64,000 bases of DNA from Candidatus Heimdallarchaeota archaeon (GTDB lineage Archaea > Asgardarchaeota > Heimdallarchaeia > Heimdallarchaeales > Heimdallarchaeaceae), in the NCBI GenBank assembly GCA_030668875.1, contig DAOVER010000002.1, positions 1 to 64,000 of the forward strand, given 5' to 3'. The notes beneath the pieces are model-generated. The model saw nothing but the letters and a program-made list of their open reading frames with translations, did no database searches and was not told where the DNA came from. Made by a program: the position numbers and the translations under genes. The number at the start of each line of letters is the position of its first letter. The first letter of the stretch is position 1. Below are positions 33,909-43,644 of the stretch, piece after piece.

Positions 33909-36413
33909 CTATTTCTCACGAAGATAGTAATCTGGTGATGCAACAAACCTTTTGTCCTCGTCAACATCTCCTTCTTCAATATCTGATGTTATCTCATCCA
34001 TTATTTCCTTATCACTGATATCTGCAAGAATCTTTTGTTTGTCAACTGTGATAATTCGATCTAGGTCTATGGTTCTGGGTTTGAATTTAGTCATTGTTTC
34101 TTCAATTTCCTCAATTTTAGAAATCTTTCCTATGAGATTCATAAAGGTCATAACCATATCTGGTCGAAGTGCTACCTGTGGAGCGATACTCATGAGTTTT
34201 CCAATTGAAATCGCTAAATTATCAATGAAATTTTTATCCTTTTCAAACAATGTCTCAGGGTTGGAATCAATGAACGAAGCAATAAGCAACAAATCAATTG
34301 ATGTCCATAAGTTTAGTACAGGTTTCTCTTTGAGTTCTAAATTATGAATAACTCCAAGCTCAGTACCTTTTACATTCTCAACAACCTTTCCTCGGATATC
34401 AAAAACATCAGATATGGTGAATTTTTGTGCTCCATAGTCTAGTAAAATATAGTCACTTACAATTTTTAAATTCCCAACAGAGTACAAATCATATCTTGAG
34501 CTCTCAACTATATCCGGCAAGATACCGGTGTTTTTTTCTACTAATATTTTCTTTAGAAGCTCAGGATTCTCGATATCTTCTGCAGACATACCAAATTCTT
34601 TAGATAATTCATCAATGACAATTTTCTTTTTATCTGCTGATAGAATTTCTGTCTCATCAGTTGAAATATTTGCATAGAGAAAATCATGAATGAAATCGAA
34701 TAGAAAGTCAGATAAGTTCAATCTTCTAGATACAAGAAAATAACCTTTGCTTGGATGGTGAATAACTGAATTAGCTGATCCAACAGTGTGATTAAATATG
34801 TTTTTAATCTTTAAATCCTGTTTTTCCATAAGTAAACTAGTGAAATTATTGCTTTCAGTAGGATTATAGTATGGCAATAAATAACCATTTAGTAGAATAT
34901 TTTCATTTTTTATTCTGATTTCACGTTGAGTTTTTGAGGTAGATTCAAGTGGAACAAAAAGATAATTATCTGGTTGGCGCATAACTTTCTTTAGTTCTTC
35001 AGTTAATTCCACATTCTTCTTAGTACAATACTCAATTATTATCTCAGGTATGAGAAAATTAAATGGAACTTGAGGAAGAGTATTTATTAATTCTTTCAAG
35101 ATATATTCTTTCTTATCTTCTTCAGTTTCTTGACGTTCTGACCCCTCTGGAGATAAAATATTGTCATAAATTCTTCTTATCATAGATAAGGAGATCTCTT
35201 GCTGTTGAAGAATTAGTATTCCATACTTTTCATTAAGTTTAGCTGGTCCAATTAGGAAGCCAACTAAGTCATTTTGCTCATCAATTACAGGTTTTCCTGT
35301 AAACTTCCAAAGTGTTCTTAATTCGGATAAGACCATATAGTCCAAATCTTTGGTTTCAGTACTGGTTGCTATGGAAACTTTGTTTCTCATTTGCTGAAAA
35401 CTAACGACTTCACTATAATTTTGTATCCTAGTTTCTATATCAATAGCTAAATCTTTGAAATACGGAGTAACGATTTCTTGAAAACGCAGATGCTCTCCAT
35501 ATATCTGATCCATTGCGTCTATGTCACGTGTATAATCATTAATGTCATCATCAAGAAGTTCTTCATAGATGTCAAACTGCTTCATATCTCGCTTCATAAT
35601 TTCTTTCTGTTTTTGAGTAAGATTTTCTTTATTTATTTCGTAAAAAAGAGTGAATCTTTCTTTCTCTTGTTGAATCTCCGTCTTCCATTTGAGAGTATCT
35701 TGAGCTGCTTTACGAAGAATCGGTCTGTTACGGAGAACTCTATCATTAATTTCGAAAATAATCCCTTTCAGTTCAGGTTTATCTGTTTCTAATCTTCTTA
35801 AACGGTTAATATTTTCGCTAAGTTCATTGTTAAAGAGGAGGAAATTGTTGTGAGTATTTTTGAACAGATGATCTTTAGAAACAGAAAAAAGGAGTTCAGA
35901 TAATTTGTAGAAATGCTGGAATATCTTGTGTTGTTTAGCTTCTACTTCATTTTTACTTGTCATATATTCTTGATCGTCTAATTTTCCAGAAACATAGTCT
36001 TGTTCTAAATTCATTTCCTCTTCAAAGGTTTTAGTAGCCGCCTTAATGGCCATATTCATAACGTAACGTACTTTTAATTCTTCAATTTCAAGAACTGGAA
36101 TACTCTTTAACTCTATACTAGGTAGTTCTAGAGTTCTTTGAGGAACTGATGGGGGGGATGTGTCAACTACTACTCTGTCAATCTGTTGAATATCTGATTC
36201 TAGTTCTGGAAGAGATTTCTTTGTTTCTTCGATTTTTTGTGTTTCTTCATCAGATTTCAATGATGTTGGAAGACCTGTAAGGATTTCTTGATATTTGTTC
36301 TTCAGAGTTTGATAGGTTCTCCTATCTATTGACCCTCGAATATAACGAAGATCTAAATCTCTAATGAATCGTAGAATTCTACGCTTCTTAACTGTGGATT
36401 CTTCAGCAGACAT
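33909..36413 (-). CDS. Large unrecognised protein, helical N-terminus with beta-rich inserts
   Basis: 834 residues, no signal peptide or membrane segment. Residues about 1-330 are highly charged, largely helical and coiled-coil-like. Two beta-rich segments ('DLVGFLIGPAKLNEKYGILIL' about 375-395; 'DVFDIRGKVVENVKGTELGVI' about 670-690) resemble PRC-barrel strands, with the V-G and G-V-I pattern of that fold. The C-terminus ends in an acidic tail. A PRC-like domain with coiled coils recalls the architecture of archaeal CdvA, but the length is far greater and the resemblance is weak. No partner gene is evident. Confidence 0.8.
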   Translation of the reverse strand: MSAEESTVKKRRILRFIRDLDLRYIRGSIDRRTYQTLKNKYQEILTGLPTSLKSDEETQKIEETKKSLPELESDIQQIDRVVVDTSPPSVPQRTLELPSIELKSIPVLEIEELKVRYVMNMAIKAATKTFEEEMNLEQDYVSGKLDDQEYMTSKNEVEAKQHKIFQHFYKLSELLFSVSKDHLFKNTHNNFLLFNNELSENINRLRRLETDKPELKGIIFEINDRVLRNRPILRKAAQDTLKWKTEIQQEKERFTLFYEINKENLTQKQKEIMKRDMKQFDIYEELLDDDINDYTRDIDAMDQIYGEHLRFQEIVTPYFKDLAIDIETRIQNYSEVVSFQQMRNKVSIATSTETKDLDYMVLSELRTLWKFTGKPVIDEQNDLVGFLIGPAKLNEKYGILILQQQEISLSMIRRIYDNILSPEGSERQETEEDKKEYILKELINTLPQVPFNFLIPEIIIEYCTKKNVELTEELKKVMRQPDNYLFVPLESTSKTQREIRIKNENILLNGYLLPYYNPTESNNFTSLLMEKQDLKIKNIFNHTVGSANSVIHHPSKGYFLVSRRLNLSDFLFDFIHDFLYANISTDETEILSADKKKIVIDELSKEFGMSAEDIENPELLKKILVEKNTGILPDIVESSRYDLYSVGNLKIVSDYILLDYGAQKFTISDVFDIRGKVVENVKGTELGVIHNLELKEKPVLNLWTSIDLLLIASFIDSNPETLFEKDKNFIDNLAISIGKLMSIAPQVALRPDMVMTFMNLIGKISKIEEIEETMTKFKPRTIDLDRIITVDKQKILADISDKEIMDEITSDIEEGDVDEDKRFVASPDYYLREK

Positions 36414-37990: not shown

Positions 37991-38176
37991 TTTATATAAT
38001 TAAGAGGTTCACGAGTGTTCGGAGATTTCTAACCAATGGATCTTGGAAGAGTTGGATGGATTGGATATTTGCGAACTGGTATGGAATGTAAAAAGTAATA
38101 TAAGAAGAGAATTACCTTAAGAGAAAAAATAAAATAGAGGAAGAAAAAATATAGTATGAAATTAAGGTGATTTAAA
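37991..38176 (+). promoter_or_regulatory. TATA box and long leader before the profilin-like gene
   Basis: TTTATATAA at 37991-37999 is flanked by CTCTT/AAGAG inverted arms. Transcription from it would begin about 38022, leaving a leader of about 150 nt, long for this genome. The leader holds a 20-codon ORF (38036-38098) and ends with AAGGTGA about 8 nt before the ATG at 38177. A second TATA-like stretch (AAAATATAG, about 38146-38154) could instead give a short leader. Confidence 0.4.
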
Positions 38177-38536
38177 ATGAGCTTTGAAGAAGAAGTAGAA
38201 AAATTAGGACAAGAGGGAACAATAGGAGTAGCGTGGTTGGTAGGAGACGATTTAAAGGTATATTACCAGTTTGGAGATTGGCCTGTTGATCCTTTAATAC
38301 CTTTCAACGCTTGGAAGAACCAAACTCATGCTGTTGATTTTGGTGGAGGTCTGAAATTTACTGTTATTACTATGACTCCAGAAAGACTTATCTCCACCAA
38401 TTTGGGTGGTCAAGGACATATTTGCATTGCACGATGTCCTAAGTGGAATGGTTGTGTGATTGTATGGTCTCCAAAAGATATTGAGAAGAACTATGCATAT
38501 GCATCTACTGCACGTTTAGCCGCAAAAGTGGGATAG
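38177..38536 (+). CDS. Profilin-like small protein (candidate Asgard profilin)
   Basis: 119 residues with AAGGTGA before the ATG. The order of elements follows profilin: an N-terminal helix, 'GTIGVAWLVGDDLKVYYQFG', a helix, then 'FGGGLKFTVITMTPERLISTNLGGQGHICIARC' (about 55-86; key residues G-G-x-K-[FY]-x-V-I and G-x-x-G), 'GCVIVWSP' and a C-terminal helix. This matches the eukaryotic 'GGxKYMVIxG...GKKGxGGITVKKT...ALIIGIYD' pattern by eye. Roadblock/longin-type small folds have a similar topology and remain an alternative. Asgard archaea encode profilins that bind actin; no actin gene is in the window. Confidence 0.5.
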   Translation: MSFEEEVEKLGQEGTIGVAWLVGDDLKVYYQFGDWPVDPLIPFNAWKNQTHAVDFGGGLKFTVITMTPERLISTNLGGQGHICIARCPKWNGCVIVWSPKDIEKNYAYASTARLAAKVG

Positions 38537-38541
38537 AAAAC

Positions 38542-38565
38542 AACACCCCCTTTAAGGTGTTTTTA
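38542..38565 (+). terminator. Hairpin plus T-tract overlapping the next start codon
   Basis: AACACC (38542-38547) pairs with GGTGTT (38556-38561) around an eight-nt loop, followed by a T-run that ends at the ATG at 38565. It looks like an intrinsic terminator for the profilin-like gene. GGTG in the 3' arm is also the likely ribosome-binding site of the next gene, so folding could hide it. Confidence 0.45.
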
Positions 38566-38867
38566 TGACAACTCCTTCTTTTATTTCTGAAAAGACTGAT
38601 TTTTTGTTGATTACTCTTAATGTTCATCCTAGTTCAACTCAGAAGAAAATTTTGATTACTGAACATGCTTTTGATATTTATGTTAAGGAACCTCCTGATA
38701 AAGGAAAAGCAAATAAGGCTGTTATCAAATTTCTTTCTAAGTATTTTGATATCTCTAGCTCATCTTTTTCAATTGTTAAAGGACATAAATCCAAAATAAA
38801 AGTTGTATCTGTTACTGATGATAAAATGGAAGGAGTGAAAAAAACAATTATAGGAGTTATTAATTAA
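38565..38867 (+). CDS. DUF167 (YggU/UPF0235) family protein
   Basis: 100 residues, the family's usual length. The diagnostic block is 'FDIYVKEPPDKGKANKAVIKFLSKYF' (key residues P-P-D-K-G-K-A-N-K-A) followed by 'SIVKGHKSKIKVV'. The fold is a small alpha/beta domain of unknown biochemical role, conserved across bacteria, archaea and eukaryotes. Its 3' end overlaps the convergent gene by 4 bp. Confidence 0.92.
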   Translation: MTTPSFISEKTDFLLITLNVHPSSTQKKILITEHAFDIYVKEPPDKGKANKAVIKFLSKYFDISSSSFSIVKGHKSKIKVVSVTDDKMEGVKKTIIGVIN

Positions 38868-39430
38868 AGACTCATCTTTTCAAATGCTCTGATTAACTCA
38901 TTTCTTTCGTTAAAAATGTTGAATAGATTACTACTTAGTGACATTAAACTTGAGATGCTGTCTTCGACTGTATCTAACATCATCTCTTCTAGATTTACTT
39001 GATTTTCAACAATTTTTTCTTTGAATTCTTCAGCACTATCTAAAATATCTATCTCTAATAGATATAGTATAGATAGATCAATACCATGCTCTCCTTCTAC
39101 ACTCTTTACATCAAAGAAAGTACTGTATTTGTAATCAGTGTTATCAGTTTCTCTCAACATATCCTCTATACGCTTAGCAACAATACCTGAAGCCCCCCAG
39201 CTAGTTAATAATTGAGAATGAATCAATAGTTCGTTTACTTGAGCCATAGCATCTTTGGAGTCACGAAGTAGGGTAAACAATTTCTTTCTAAAAGCCATAT
39301 CTGAATCTCTTCGGTTTTCGAGATTGGGATAACCTTGGTAATCAGGAATATTTGCCATTAATATTTTCAAAGCTTCAGGAATTTTACCACTGATTTCGTC
39401 TTTTGCAGGCTTATTTTTTTTACCAAACAT
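38864..39430 (-). CDS. Hypothetical helical protein downstream of DNA ligase
   Basis: 188 residues, soluble and mostly helical, starting 'MFGKKNKPAKDE'. Charged helices at about 15-75, 'LLTSWGASGIVAKRIEDML' in the middle and a Leu/Glu-rich C-terminal half (about 120-188) suggest a helical bundle. No motif or family is recognised. It lies 17 bp downstream of the ligase gene on the same strand, so it is probably part of the same transcript. Confidence 0.65.
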   Translation of the reverse strand: MFGKKNKPAKDEISGKIPEALKILMANIPDYQGYPNLENRRDSDMAFRKKLFTLLRDSKDAMAQVNELLIHSQLLTSWGASGIVAKRIEDMLRETDNTDYKYSTFFDVKSVEGEHGIDLSILYLLEIDILDSAEEFKEKIVENQVNLEEMMLDTVEDSISSLMSLSSNLFNIFNERNELIRAFEKMSL

Positions 39431-39447
39431 TGGATTTCACTTTTAAC

Positions 39448-41214
39448 TTATTTTTTTTGATTTAAATATATTGTGTGTATTTCTTGATTTGATGTAGAGT
39501 CTTCGGGAGTTTTATCTTCAACAATCCTTCCGGTGAATCTTGGGAAACGCAGAGCTAACCCATCTTTTTTTCCTCCTAAAAGACCTCTTGCACATGTGTG
39601 AATCTGACTTACAGTAATTTCTGCTCCAATTACTTCAATAACTATTGAAGGTTCAAACCAGATTTGACATTCTGTATCACTTTGTATTTCCTTGGGTTTT
39701 GCTCGTTCCAATTTTTTGAGAACATTGTAGAAATATTGAAGGTTTTCATCACTAAAACCAGTAGCAACTTTTGTAAATGTTCTATACACAGTATCATTCG
39801 TATCAAAACAACCTATTAGGAACGTACCGTACAATCCGGCTCTTTTACCTTTACCGTAATCAGCTCCTAGGATGACAAGATCGAATGAATCTGATAGTTT
39901 GTCAACATAATCGGCTTTGTATTTTACCCAATTCCAACCTCGAGCTCCAGCTTGATAAGCAGAACCTTTTGACATATCCTTGCCCATTATTCCTTCGCAG
40001 CTGTTTTCTAAGGCTTGTTGAAAGAAATTTTCTATGTCATCAGAGTTTTCAGCAACTGTCTGATGAGAATATTGGATATTATTATTCGTTTCCACAAGTT
40101 TTTCCAATAACTGTCTCCTGTCAAGATAATCGCTTTCTATCTCTGATTTCCCAAAAGCATAAAGTGAGTCAAAAAGATACACTCTAACAGGAACCTCGCT
40201 AATTTTCTTATCAATGTCATGCTTTCTTTTCCTTTGTGAAACTTGCTGAAAGGGTAGTATTTTGTCTTTTTGTAAATCATAAGCCACAATTTCCCCTTCA
40301 ATTATGAAATCATCTTCTTTAGCAGCATTGTTAATGAATTTGACTACATCAGGGAATTGGTTTGTTATATCTTCAGGTTTTCTGGAAAATAATTTGATTA
40401 TTGTACCTTTTTTATGTATTTGAACTCGCAATCCATCATATTTGTATTCTAGAGCAACCTTCCCTCCGAATCTTTCCAACAACTTTTCAGAGCTTGAAAC
40501 TCTTTGTGCCAACATGACTCTTATCGGATTGAAAATCTTCACTTCTACTTTTTTTATGCTTTCTAAACCTTGGGCAAAAAGTGATGATGCAACAAACTCT
40601 ATATCTGATGTTCTGTTATAAGCTCTTTCGAGAATATCTTTGTTTTCTCTGGTGCTTGTTTTAGCTAGAGACAGAGATTCTAATAGTAACTGAGTTGCAA
40701 CTCCTAATCTTAGTTGCCCACACACCATCCTAATTATGTATCTGGCTTCCAGTGGGGAAACTTTGGAAATAAGACCAGATAATGTTCTAATCTTCTTATC
40801 TGATGATCCTTCACCAGACATTTTTGCTATAGAATCAAAAATATTCCATATGTCTAGAACACTTAACTCTTGTTGCTCTTCTTGTTTAGTAAAAGCTAAC
40901 AGAGTCGATTGAGGTTTGTTTTCTAATAGCTTGTGAGCCGTTTTTCCTAAATCACCAAATTCATCTAGCAGGGTTTGAACAGATTTATCACTCTTACCTG
41001 TAGCTATTGCTAATGATTTAACTGCCATTCTTTCAGCTAGCATTAGTTCAATTCCAATAAAATCTGGATAAAGCTTACCCAGAGTTAAAAGAGCAATTTT
41101 TCCAATCTCTTTTGAATCAGAGTCTTTTATTGCATCTGCTAAAATGTCAACCATTTCAAGTTTTTTCTGTGTCTTTTCTAATTTGAAATAACACTGCGAT
41201 AGATCTTTGAACAT
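39448..41214 (-). CDS. lig: ATP-dependent DNA ligase
   Basis: 588 residues, typical for archaeal/eukaryotic type I ligases. The N-terminal DNA-binding domain spans about 1-220. The adenylated lysine is K258 in 'EYKYDGLRVQIH' (motif I). Further motifs are 'FIIEGEIVAYD' (III), 'EGIMGKD' (IV) and 'WVKYKADY' (V), then an OB domain with 'GLALRFPRF'. It seals nicks in replication and repair. The ATG at 41214 is used; a TTG one codon earlier is in frame. It lies 14 bp downstream of the GIFT-domain gene, which suggests a shared transcript. Confidence 0.97.
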   Translation of the reverse strand: MFKDLSQCYFKLEKTQKKLEMVDILADAIKDSDSKEIGKIALLTLGKLYPDFIGIELMLAERMAVKSLAIATGKSDKSVQTLLDEFGDLGKTAHKLLENKPQSTLLAFTKQEEQQELSVLDIWNIFDSIAKMSGEGSSDKKIRTLSGLISKVSPLEARYIIRMVCGQLRLGVATQLLLESLSLAKTSTRENKDILERAYNRTSDIEFVASSLFAQGLESIKKVEVKIFNPIRVMLAQRVSSSEKLLERFGGKVALEYKYDGLRVQIHKKGTIIKLFSRKPEDITNQFPDVVKFINNAAKEDDFIIEGEIVAYDLQKDKILPFQQVSQRKRKHDIDKKISEVPVRVYLFDSLYAFGKSEIESDYLDRRQLLEKLVETNNNIQYSHQTVAENSDDIENFFQQALENSCEGIMGKDMSKGSAYQAGARGWNWVKYKADYVDKLSDSFDLVILGADYGKGKRAGLYGTFLIGCFDTNDTVYRTFTKVATGFSDENLQYFYNVLKKLERAKPKEIQSDTECQIWFEPSIVIEVIGAEITVSQIHTCARGLLGGKKDGLALRFPRFTGRIVEDKTPEDSTSNQEIHTIYLNQKK

Positions 41215-41228
41215 CAAATAAATCTGTC

Positions 41229-42581
41229 CTAAAATATCCTTTTCTTGCCTTTTTGCTCTTTAATTTCAAGAACAATTTCACTCATTAAATGAATTAGATT
41301 TGCACTTAAAACATCGACACTATTTTTTAGTTCTTTTATTGCATCTACAACTTCTGTTAAATCAGATTTTTGTAATTGTTGAGAAACAGCTGGTACTTGA
41401 CTACTTGATTGTATTTGTTCCTCTAGTGTTTCGTCAAAAATCAGCACTTCTTGTTCAAACCTATCAGCTGGTGTTGGTAAAGGAATGGAAGATTCATCGA
41501 TTCTACGAGCTTTATCTATTTGCTTCTTACTAGATTCGCTTTTTAGTTTCTCCTTCTCTCGGATTTTTTCTAGATATGGCAAAACTTGTGAATAATCAAT
41601 ACCTTTTCTTCTCGCCATATCTGTAAGAAGTATATCTCTATACCCTGGATCTTCTATGTTGAGTTCAGAAATATCTTTTTCTAAATCTTGAATAATTGCA
41701 ATTGCACTGTAGATATCATCCTTAGAGAGTTTAGGTGCTGTTTTCTCCACTTTTGATTCCTTTATTTTCATTTCTTGTTTTAGTTCCTGAACGATAGATG
41801 TTGGAGTGACTACTTTGTCAGGAGTGGGAATTTCAGGAACAGGAGGTTGTTTAAGTGTGGTTACACTCTGTGTTTCAGGTTCAGGTTTCTCTTCAGTTAC
41901 TTCTTCAGTTTCACCCGATGGAACCTCAGAAATGAAGTTGAAAATATTGTTTGCTAATTTTTTATTGTTCCTTAATCTCAAACCTGATTTTAGATCGGAA
42001 AGCATTAAGTAAGATCCACAAGCCAAAACTGTTCCTAACCCGTACGAAGCCATAGCTAAAACTGTTGAACTTGGTGGATCACTATCAGAAGCTGTTCTTG
42101 CAAGTTCTATTCCGTTCTTACCTATGTTGATTGAACAACTCGATACCATAGTTATTTCTTTAATTCCTTCAGTTATGGAATGGTCGAAGAATTTGCTGAT
42201 AACTGGGTTACTTTCCAGTTTCAAATCATAGTTCTTATAATCAAAAATTTGGTTTGCTACTATCTCCATTTTGAAGTGTTTTAGAAGTGTATTTAGATTA
42301 GTGTTTAATCCTCTATCACCACCAGCATTAGCAAAAATTGCTATAGAACCCCCCTCATCTACAAATCGTAAGAGAGCTTTAACTTCATGCCCATACAATT
42401 TCGAACCATCGGGACAGAGAAACACAAGAATATCGTATTTAGAAATTTCTGAATACTTTATCGGAAATGTGTCCAAACGGCCGATTTGATGTCCTGAATC
42501 CTCAAGGGTTTCAGCTAATTTTCGAAAGTTATCAAAAATAAGACCTCTTTCTTTTTGGGTTTCGTCAAACAAAATTTTCAT
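41229..42581 (-). CDS. GIFT/IFT52-like domain protein with a long disordered linker
   Basis: About 450 residues from the ATG at 42581, which has AAGGTG just upstream; a TTG five codons earlier is in frame. Residues about 1-215 form a GATase-like domain: 'KYDILVFLCPDG', 'EVKALLRFVDEGGSIAIFANAGG', 'NTNLNTLLKHFKMEI' and 'GLGTVLACGSYLMLSD'. This order matches the GIFT domain of eukaryotic IFT52, also found in GldG-like and DUF4350 prokaryotic proteins. A Pro/Glu/Thr-rich linker (about 220-290), helices, and a C-terminal amphipathic segment follow. It lacks catalytic Cys/His of true amidotransferases as far as I can see. Confidence 0.65.
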   Translation of the reverse strand: MKILFDETQKERGLIFDNFRKLAETLEDSGHQIGRLDTFPIKYSEISKYDILVFLCPDGSKLYGHEVKALLRFVDEGGSIAIFANAGGDRGLNTNLNTLLKHFKMEIVANQIFDYKNYDLKLESNPVISKFFDHSITEGIKEITMVSSCSINIGKNGIELARTASDSDPPSSTVLAMASYGLGTVLACGSYLMLSDLKSGLRLRNNKKLANNIFNFISEVPSGETEEVTEEKPEPETQSVTTLKQPPVPEIPTPDKVVTPTSIVQELKQEMKIKESKVEKTAPKLSKDDIYSAIAIIQDLEKDISELNIEDPGYRDILLTDMARRKGIDYSQVLPYLEKIREKEKLKSESSKKQIDKARRIDESSIPLPTPADRFEQEVLIFDETLEEQIQSSSQVPAVSQQLQKSDLTEVVDAIKELKNSVDVLSANLIHLMSEIVLEIKEQKGKKRIF

Positions 42582-42777
42582 ATTAACACCTTGCAACTTT
42601 AAATAATCTCTTCGACTCTAGTGAGAACAGTTAAAAATTGATAAATATAAGTTTGATGTTGGTGAAAACAACCCAAAAAAGAATATAAATGTTCAATGTA
42701 GCATCTATTAACGAGAAACTTCACATCACTTAAACTTTAATATAGGCTGTTTCCAAATATAATTATCCGGTGAGTTA

Positions 42778-43644
42778 ATGTCGAAATTCGATTTCAGTAA
42801 TCAGAGTACTCTTTCTTCAACAAAACTTGATATTATAATTCTCCATTCTCAGAAAGGTGGGCCTGGAAAAACAACTCTTTCATGCAACATTGCAAAAGAA
42901 TTGGCAAAAAGGGGAAATAAAACAGTAATAATTGATCTTGATATTGCACAACCAACAATTCAGCACATATTTCATATAGATGATATTGACATAAAACACA
43001 CAATTAACGATGTTCTCCTTGGAGAAACATCTGTGTCAGAGGATGTCCTAAACAAGACAGATGATCCCAATTTGTTCGCCATTGTAGCTAAAGAAAATGT
43101 AGAGTATGGTGAAGGATTACTTTCTATGTTAGAAGAAATTCAGAAACATTCTTTCTTTGCTTTGCATGAGATGACAAAATTCCTCTTAAGAATGGGTTTT
43201 AGATATGTGATTTATGATTGTGCGCCTGGATATAAGCTTGAATCTGTCAATGCTGCAGCGATAGCCGATGCTAGAATTTTTGTTTTAAGACCATCCACTT
43301 TTAGTTATGAAGGATCAAAGCAGATGTTAAATGATATCTACAAGAAACTAAATATTCGTTCTTCAAATTTCTTCGTTTTCAATCAACTCCCCCCTAATCT
43401 AAAAGAAGAAAGCCAAAACTTGCTTAATTCATGGAAAGATGGTATTGTAGAACTCTATGAACCTGAGACCATTAAATTTCTTGATTTTCTTCCTATTTCC
43501 CATGAAATTATGGAAATGGGTCTTACAGGAGAGTATATTTTTCCAGAATCAAATCCTCTATATAAGAGACTCACCAAAATAGTAGATACAGTTGTTGAAA
43601 CACTTGATGAGATGAAAAAGGTAAAATTAAAAGAAGAAAGCTGA
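42778..43644 (+). CDS. ParA/MinD-family P-loop ATPase
   Basis: 288 residues. The deviant Walker A is 'SQKGGPGKTTLS' near residue 30, with the signature Lys; 'VIIDLDIAQPT' and 'YVIYDCAPGY' give the A' and Walker B segments. Such ATPases dimerise on ATP and position DNA, membranes or protein complexes. No ParB- or MinE-like partner is adjacent. It is divergent from the GIFT-domain gene, sharing a 196-bp AT-rich intergenic region with a TATA-like element (about 42735-42745). It could act with the two zinc-ribbon membrane proteins downstream, by proximity only. Confidence 0.88.
   Translation: MSKFDFSNQSTLSSTKLDIIILHSQKGGPGKTTLSCNIAKELAKRGNKTVIIDLDIAQPTIQHIFHIDDIDIKHTINDVLLGETSVSEDVLNKTDDPNLFAIVAKENVEYGEGLLSMLEEIQKHSFFALHEMTKFLLRMGFRYVIYDCAPGYKLESVNAAAIADARIFVLRPSTFSYEGSKQMLNDIYKKLNIRSSNFFVFNQLPPNLKEESQNLLNSWKDGIVELYEPETIKFLDFLPISHEIMEMGLTGEYIFPESNPLYKRLTKIVDTVVETLDEMKKVKLKEES

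Follow-up and report, generated by a model that had tools for sequence, protein, structure and literature searches.

A short, single-copy profilin of a Heimdallarchaeota genome, most likely a partner of the cell's own actin

Profilin is a small actin-binding protein that controls filament assembly. It is a eukaryotic signature protein, one of those that link the actin cytoskeleton with Asgard archaea. Published assays found slower nucleation or elongation of actin with the Loki, Odin, Thor and Heimdall profilins, and PIP2 binding by several of them (PMC8410842). Polyproline binding varies among them, with sub-millimolar to millimolar affinity for heimProfilin and thorProfilin (PMC8410842). In heimProfilin, the protein of Heimdallarchaeota LC3 (6YRR), removal of a 23-residue N-terminal extension (delta-N) abolishes inhibition of rabbit actin, F95 is required for the effect on actin, G104 was mutated in actin assays, and K110 and K146 are implicated in lipid binding (PMC8410842).

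Against this background we describe a profilin gene in a stretch of 64,000 nucleotides from a Candidatus Heimdallarchaeota archaeon, the whole of which is called the window below. The gene is placed as follows.

38177 to 38536, forward strand: profilin gene, 119 aa, stop included; assigned from PDB sequence matches, the AlphaFold2 model, Foldseek and its single copy

A 119-codon open reading frame with an ATG start lies at exactly these positions, and it is a real gene. Its differences from four close relatives (L002-L005) fall mostly at third codon positions, the count against L002 being 9/6/42 over positions 1/2/3 (42 of 57 at the third), so that the frame behaves as a protein under constraint; all named relatives are 'Candidatus Heimdallarchaeota archaeon' MAGs. 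Of 97 Asgard genomes, 77 had a profilin match when searched with the single sequence and 81 when searched with a profile; 19 of the 21 same-genus genomes had a match, with one copy each. A second copy was sought in the gene's own genome and not found. Several Asgard families have extra copies. As a separate observation, the profilins of family f8 bear a C-terminal extension of about 80 to 110 residues with the conserved part FLEWIK..DGLSGYISYYLQQNN (L066 2229-2831, L069 1998-2603, L070 2287-2895 and L079 1975-2682), and the genomes that encode them have 3 to 5 profilin matches each.

The sequence-only reading had proposed a candidate profilin, quoting the motifs GGLKFTVI, GGQGHICIARC and GCVIVW, all of which are present in the 119-aa frame. 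With the single sequence, phmmer matched the Odin profilin 5ZZA (E 1.8e-10), Loki profilin-1 5YED (8.3e-5), the Thor profilin 7PBH (1.6e-4) and Loki profilin-2 5ZZB (1.2e-3). A profile of 64 Asgard homologues strengthened the matches to 5ZZA (9.7e-37) and 7PBH (3e-34), matched the Heimdall LC3 protein 6YRR at 1e-25, and weakly reached a eukaryotic protein, Acanthamoeba profilin II (E 0.0051). The window protein alone had no match in Pfam, even at E 10, and is therefore distant from eukaryotic profilins; a PF00235 search of the whole genome likewise gave no match. PF00235 was matched by 38 of the 64 aligned homologues (best 1.8e-7), and the missing Pfam match is a limit of that model's reach, not a biological criterion and no evidence either way. 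With the PDB sequence matches, PF00235 in the homologues, the fold and the actin and gelsolin context described below, the candidate becomes a genuine Asgard profilin, of a family already known from these archaea.

The closest described relative is the Odin profilin, whose structure was solved in complex with rabbit actin (5ZZA). It resembles the window protein over the full length in sequence and fold, and both lack an N-terminal extension and a Loki-loop; identity is about 30%, and the end of the C-terminal helix differs slightly. AlphaFold2, run with the homologue alignment, gave a confident model (pLDDT 92.8, pTM 0.85) with elements in the order H-E-E-H-E-E-E-E-E-H, which agrees with the strand and helix order read earlier by eye. 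In this model the protein has the profilin fold, its terminal helices lying against a central antiparallel sheet. The Loki profilins 1 and 2 (5YED, 5ZZB) have a similar fold (TM 0.79-0.80) but carry the Loki-loop insertion, which is absent from the window protein in the alignment; the Lokiprofilin subtype with an extended loop was rejected on this ground. Eukaryotic profilins (yeast 1YPR, Acanthamoeba 1ACF and human) share the fold at TM of about 0.6-0.74, whereas identity to them is only 13-18% and PF00235 alone misses the window protein.

heimProfilin (PMC8410842) has the same core fold, and LC3-like sequences fall into family f5 of the class, not into that of the window protein. An in-frame stop lies just 5' of the ATG, with two codons between, and since this is the only ATG, no longer form of the protein is possible; the heimProfilin subtype, with its N-terminal extension of about 20 residues, was accordingly rejected. 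Between the two proteins, G104, W120 and K146 of heimProfilin are kept as G80, W97 and K117, whereas F95, W53 and F147 correspond to L71, Y30 and V118. G80 is invariant in all 64 homologues, L71 is leucine in 45 and V118 is valine in 40. The lipid-linked K110 and K146 align to R86 and K117. As for polyproline, Y52 and W53 of heimProfilin correspond to Y29 and Y30; the aromatics Y29, Y30 and W35 are retained, and the contact F147 is replaced by V118. From this mapping and the published assays of Asgard profilins, we expect binding of actin monomers and sensitivity to lipids, with polyproline binding weak at best.

A cognate target exists, since the same genome encodes actins: two are eukaryote-like, one at about 538 bits to eukaryotic actins, and a best match to 'HC1 actin' reaches 650 bits. 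A third, more distant member of the actin family is also present, as is a two-domain gelsolin of the 2DGel type, whose best match is the Heimdall 2DGel (1.4e-60), a protein of solved structure. A DNA-pattern search of the genome for polyproline ligands turned up no convincing PPPPP-rich protein, the only candidates being two short reading frames of doubtful status; the pattern is its own reverse, so the backwards control is uninformative.

We conclude, at a probability of roughly 95%, that this is the only profilin of an Asgard archaeon of the Heimdallarchaeota type and that it most likely binds the actin monomers of its own cell. By analogy with Asgard profilins assayed on rabbit and Heimdall actin, it would bind the monomer at the barbed face, slow spontaneous nucleation and pass monomers to growing filament ends. 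Anionic membrane lipids could probably release it, and weak binding to proline-rich partners is also possible. Against this stand the distance from eukaryotic profilins, the leucine in place of F95 (shared with most Asgard homologues) and the valine in place of F147. The extension is also absent, as in delta-N heimProfilin, which no longer inhibits; however, the Loki and Odin profilins inhibit without one. A diverged copy that kept the fold, lost its action on actin and took another partner would fit the changed contact positions (F95 to L, F147 to V), the distance from the Pfam model and the extra copies of other Asgard families, but we consider it unlikely, given that a genome with actins and gelsolin has no profilin but this one, that the protein is under protein-level constraint, and that its closest relative, the Odin profilin, was crystallised on actin.

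The fold search bears on a second alternative. Foldseek against the PDB placed the Odin profilin first (E 7.5e-10, TM 0.85, full-length), and every match in ranks 1 to 23 was a profilin, apart from the viral profilin-like A42R. The sequence-only reading had suggested structure prediction as a check and named a match to roadblock or longin proteins as what would tell against profilin; with the first Ragulator/roadblock chain only at rank 24 (E 1.9e-3, TM 0.51), profilins stand on top, roadblock and longin proteins are no better match, and profilin is not refuted. A regulator of small GTPases with a roadblock/LC7 or longin fold, which has an alpha-beta layout similar to that of profilin, is matched weakly by Ragulator/roadblock chains from that rank on (TM 0.51-0.64) and by Robl_LC7 in 3 of 64 homologues (best 0.019), is hardly credible beside a profilin fold match some six orders of magnitude stronger and significant sequence matches to profilins only, and was rejected on the search ranking.

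The profilin gene is flanked on both sides by elements that may bear on its expression, all on the forward strand.

38120 to 38136, forward strand: agagaaaaaataaaata, a BRE/TATA-like block and putative archaeal promoter element, some 41-57 nt 5' of the ATG
38165 to 38172, forward strand: profilin ribosome-binding site, AAGGTGAT; a GGTGA-type motif precedes nearly all same-genus profilin starts
38544 to 38562, forward strand: the 'terminator hairpin' of the sequence-only reading, its stem not conserved; more plausibly a spacer, with the DUF167 ribosome-binding site as its right arm, AAGGTG
38565 to 38867, forward strand: gene of the DUF167/YggU family (PF02594, E 3.8e-20), after a gap of 28 nt

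Upstream, an A/T-rich TATA-like block recurs at a similar distance from the ATG in 19 genomes of the genus, and it is kept also where the gene upstream of profilin is divergent. With the spacing between TATA box and transcription start that is typical of archaea, a block at about 41-57 nt predicts a start about 20 nt before the ATG. The gene thus does not appear to have the long leader once ascribed to it: the 190-nt upstream gap would be mostly intergenic. Downstream, the 6-bp stem (AACACC/GGTGTT, -6.3 kcal/mol) differs, weakens or vanishes in 20 relatives, neither its sequence nor its position being kept, whereas nearly all of them retain GGTG a few nucleotides ahead of the DUF167 start. We therefore rejected the terminator, and the conserved GGTG is most simply read as the ribosome-binding site of DUF167. 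This gene directly follows profilin in 21 of 21 family members examined, and the two most likely form one transcription unit. Of the proposed separate regulation, one part stands, as the profilin gene probably has its own promoter; the other does not, for it most likely lacks its own terminator and shares its transcript with DUF167.

Other genes nearby were noticed in passing. An 834-aa protein without a Pfam match is encoded at 33909-36413 on the reverse strand; in most family members the gene next to profilin on the upstream side, divergently oriented, is its orthologue, but in the window two membrane-protein genes (YhhN and YdjM-like) lie in between. On the other side, a 188-aa protein (38864-39430, reverse strand), also without a Pfam match, adjoins profilin in families f1 and f3 and has 19 invariant residues; AlphaFold2 gives a confident helical bundle (pLDDT 89), for which the PDB fold search returned no match. 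Farther on, a 455-aa protein (41229-42596, reverse strand) matches the IFT52 GIFT domain over the cut-off in its N-terminal part (E 4.1e-10), and its gene adjoins that of a ParA/MinD-type ATPase at 42778.

In many Asgard families the genes for profilin, DUF167 and an ATP-dependent DNA ligase lie close together, though their orientations vary (window 38177-41217; also L051-L062, L073, L075, L078 and L081). DUF167 lies at most about 430 bp from profilin in six families (f1, f3, f9, f16, f18 and f20), and the ligase at most 2 kb away in seven (f1, f3, f10, f11, f12, f16 and f18). There are two main arrangements: in f1 the ligase follows DUF167 downstream and is encoded on the other strand, and in f11, f12, f16 and f18 it is upstream of profilin in the same direction; within the flanks examined, families f4 to f8, f14 and f19 showed no ligase. 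For genomes of 1.4-4 Mb, we estimate the chance that a particular gene falls within 2 kb at the order of 0.1-0.3% per genome. The neighbourhood is most simply retained ancestral gene order, and its recurrence across families suggests vertical inheritance of profilin. We consider it very unlikely that the three genes are linked in function, for instance through joint control of actin regulation and of DNA replication or repair.

Together, these results describe a short Asgard profilin with neither the Heimdall LC3 nor the Loki subtype insertions, an ordinary but well-supported member of its family. They add to the known Asgard proteins a Heimdallarchaeota profilin that is short, lacks the extension, occurs as a single copy and escapes standard Pfam searches, and the conserved neighbourhood, of which we found no description in the literature searched, is an independent sign that profilin was inherited vertically inside the Asgard archaea. 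Whether polyproline control predates eukaryotes could be tested more simply on this protein than on the extended profilin of LC3.
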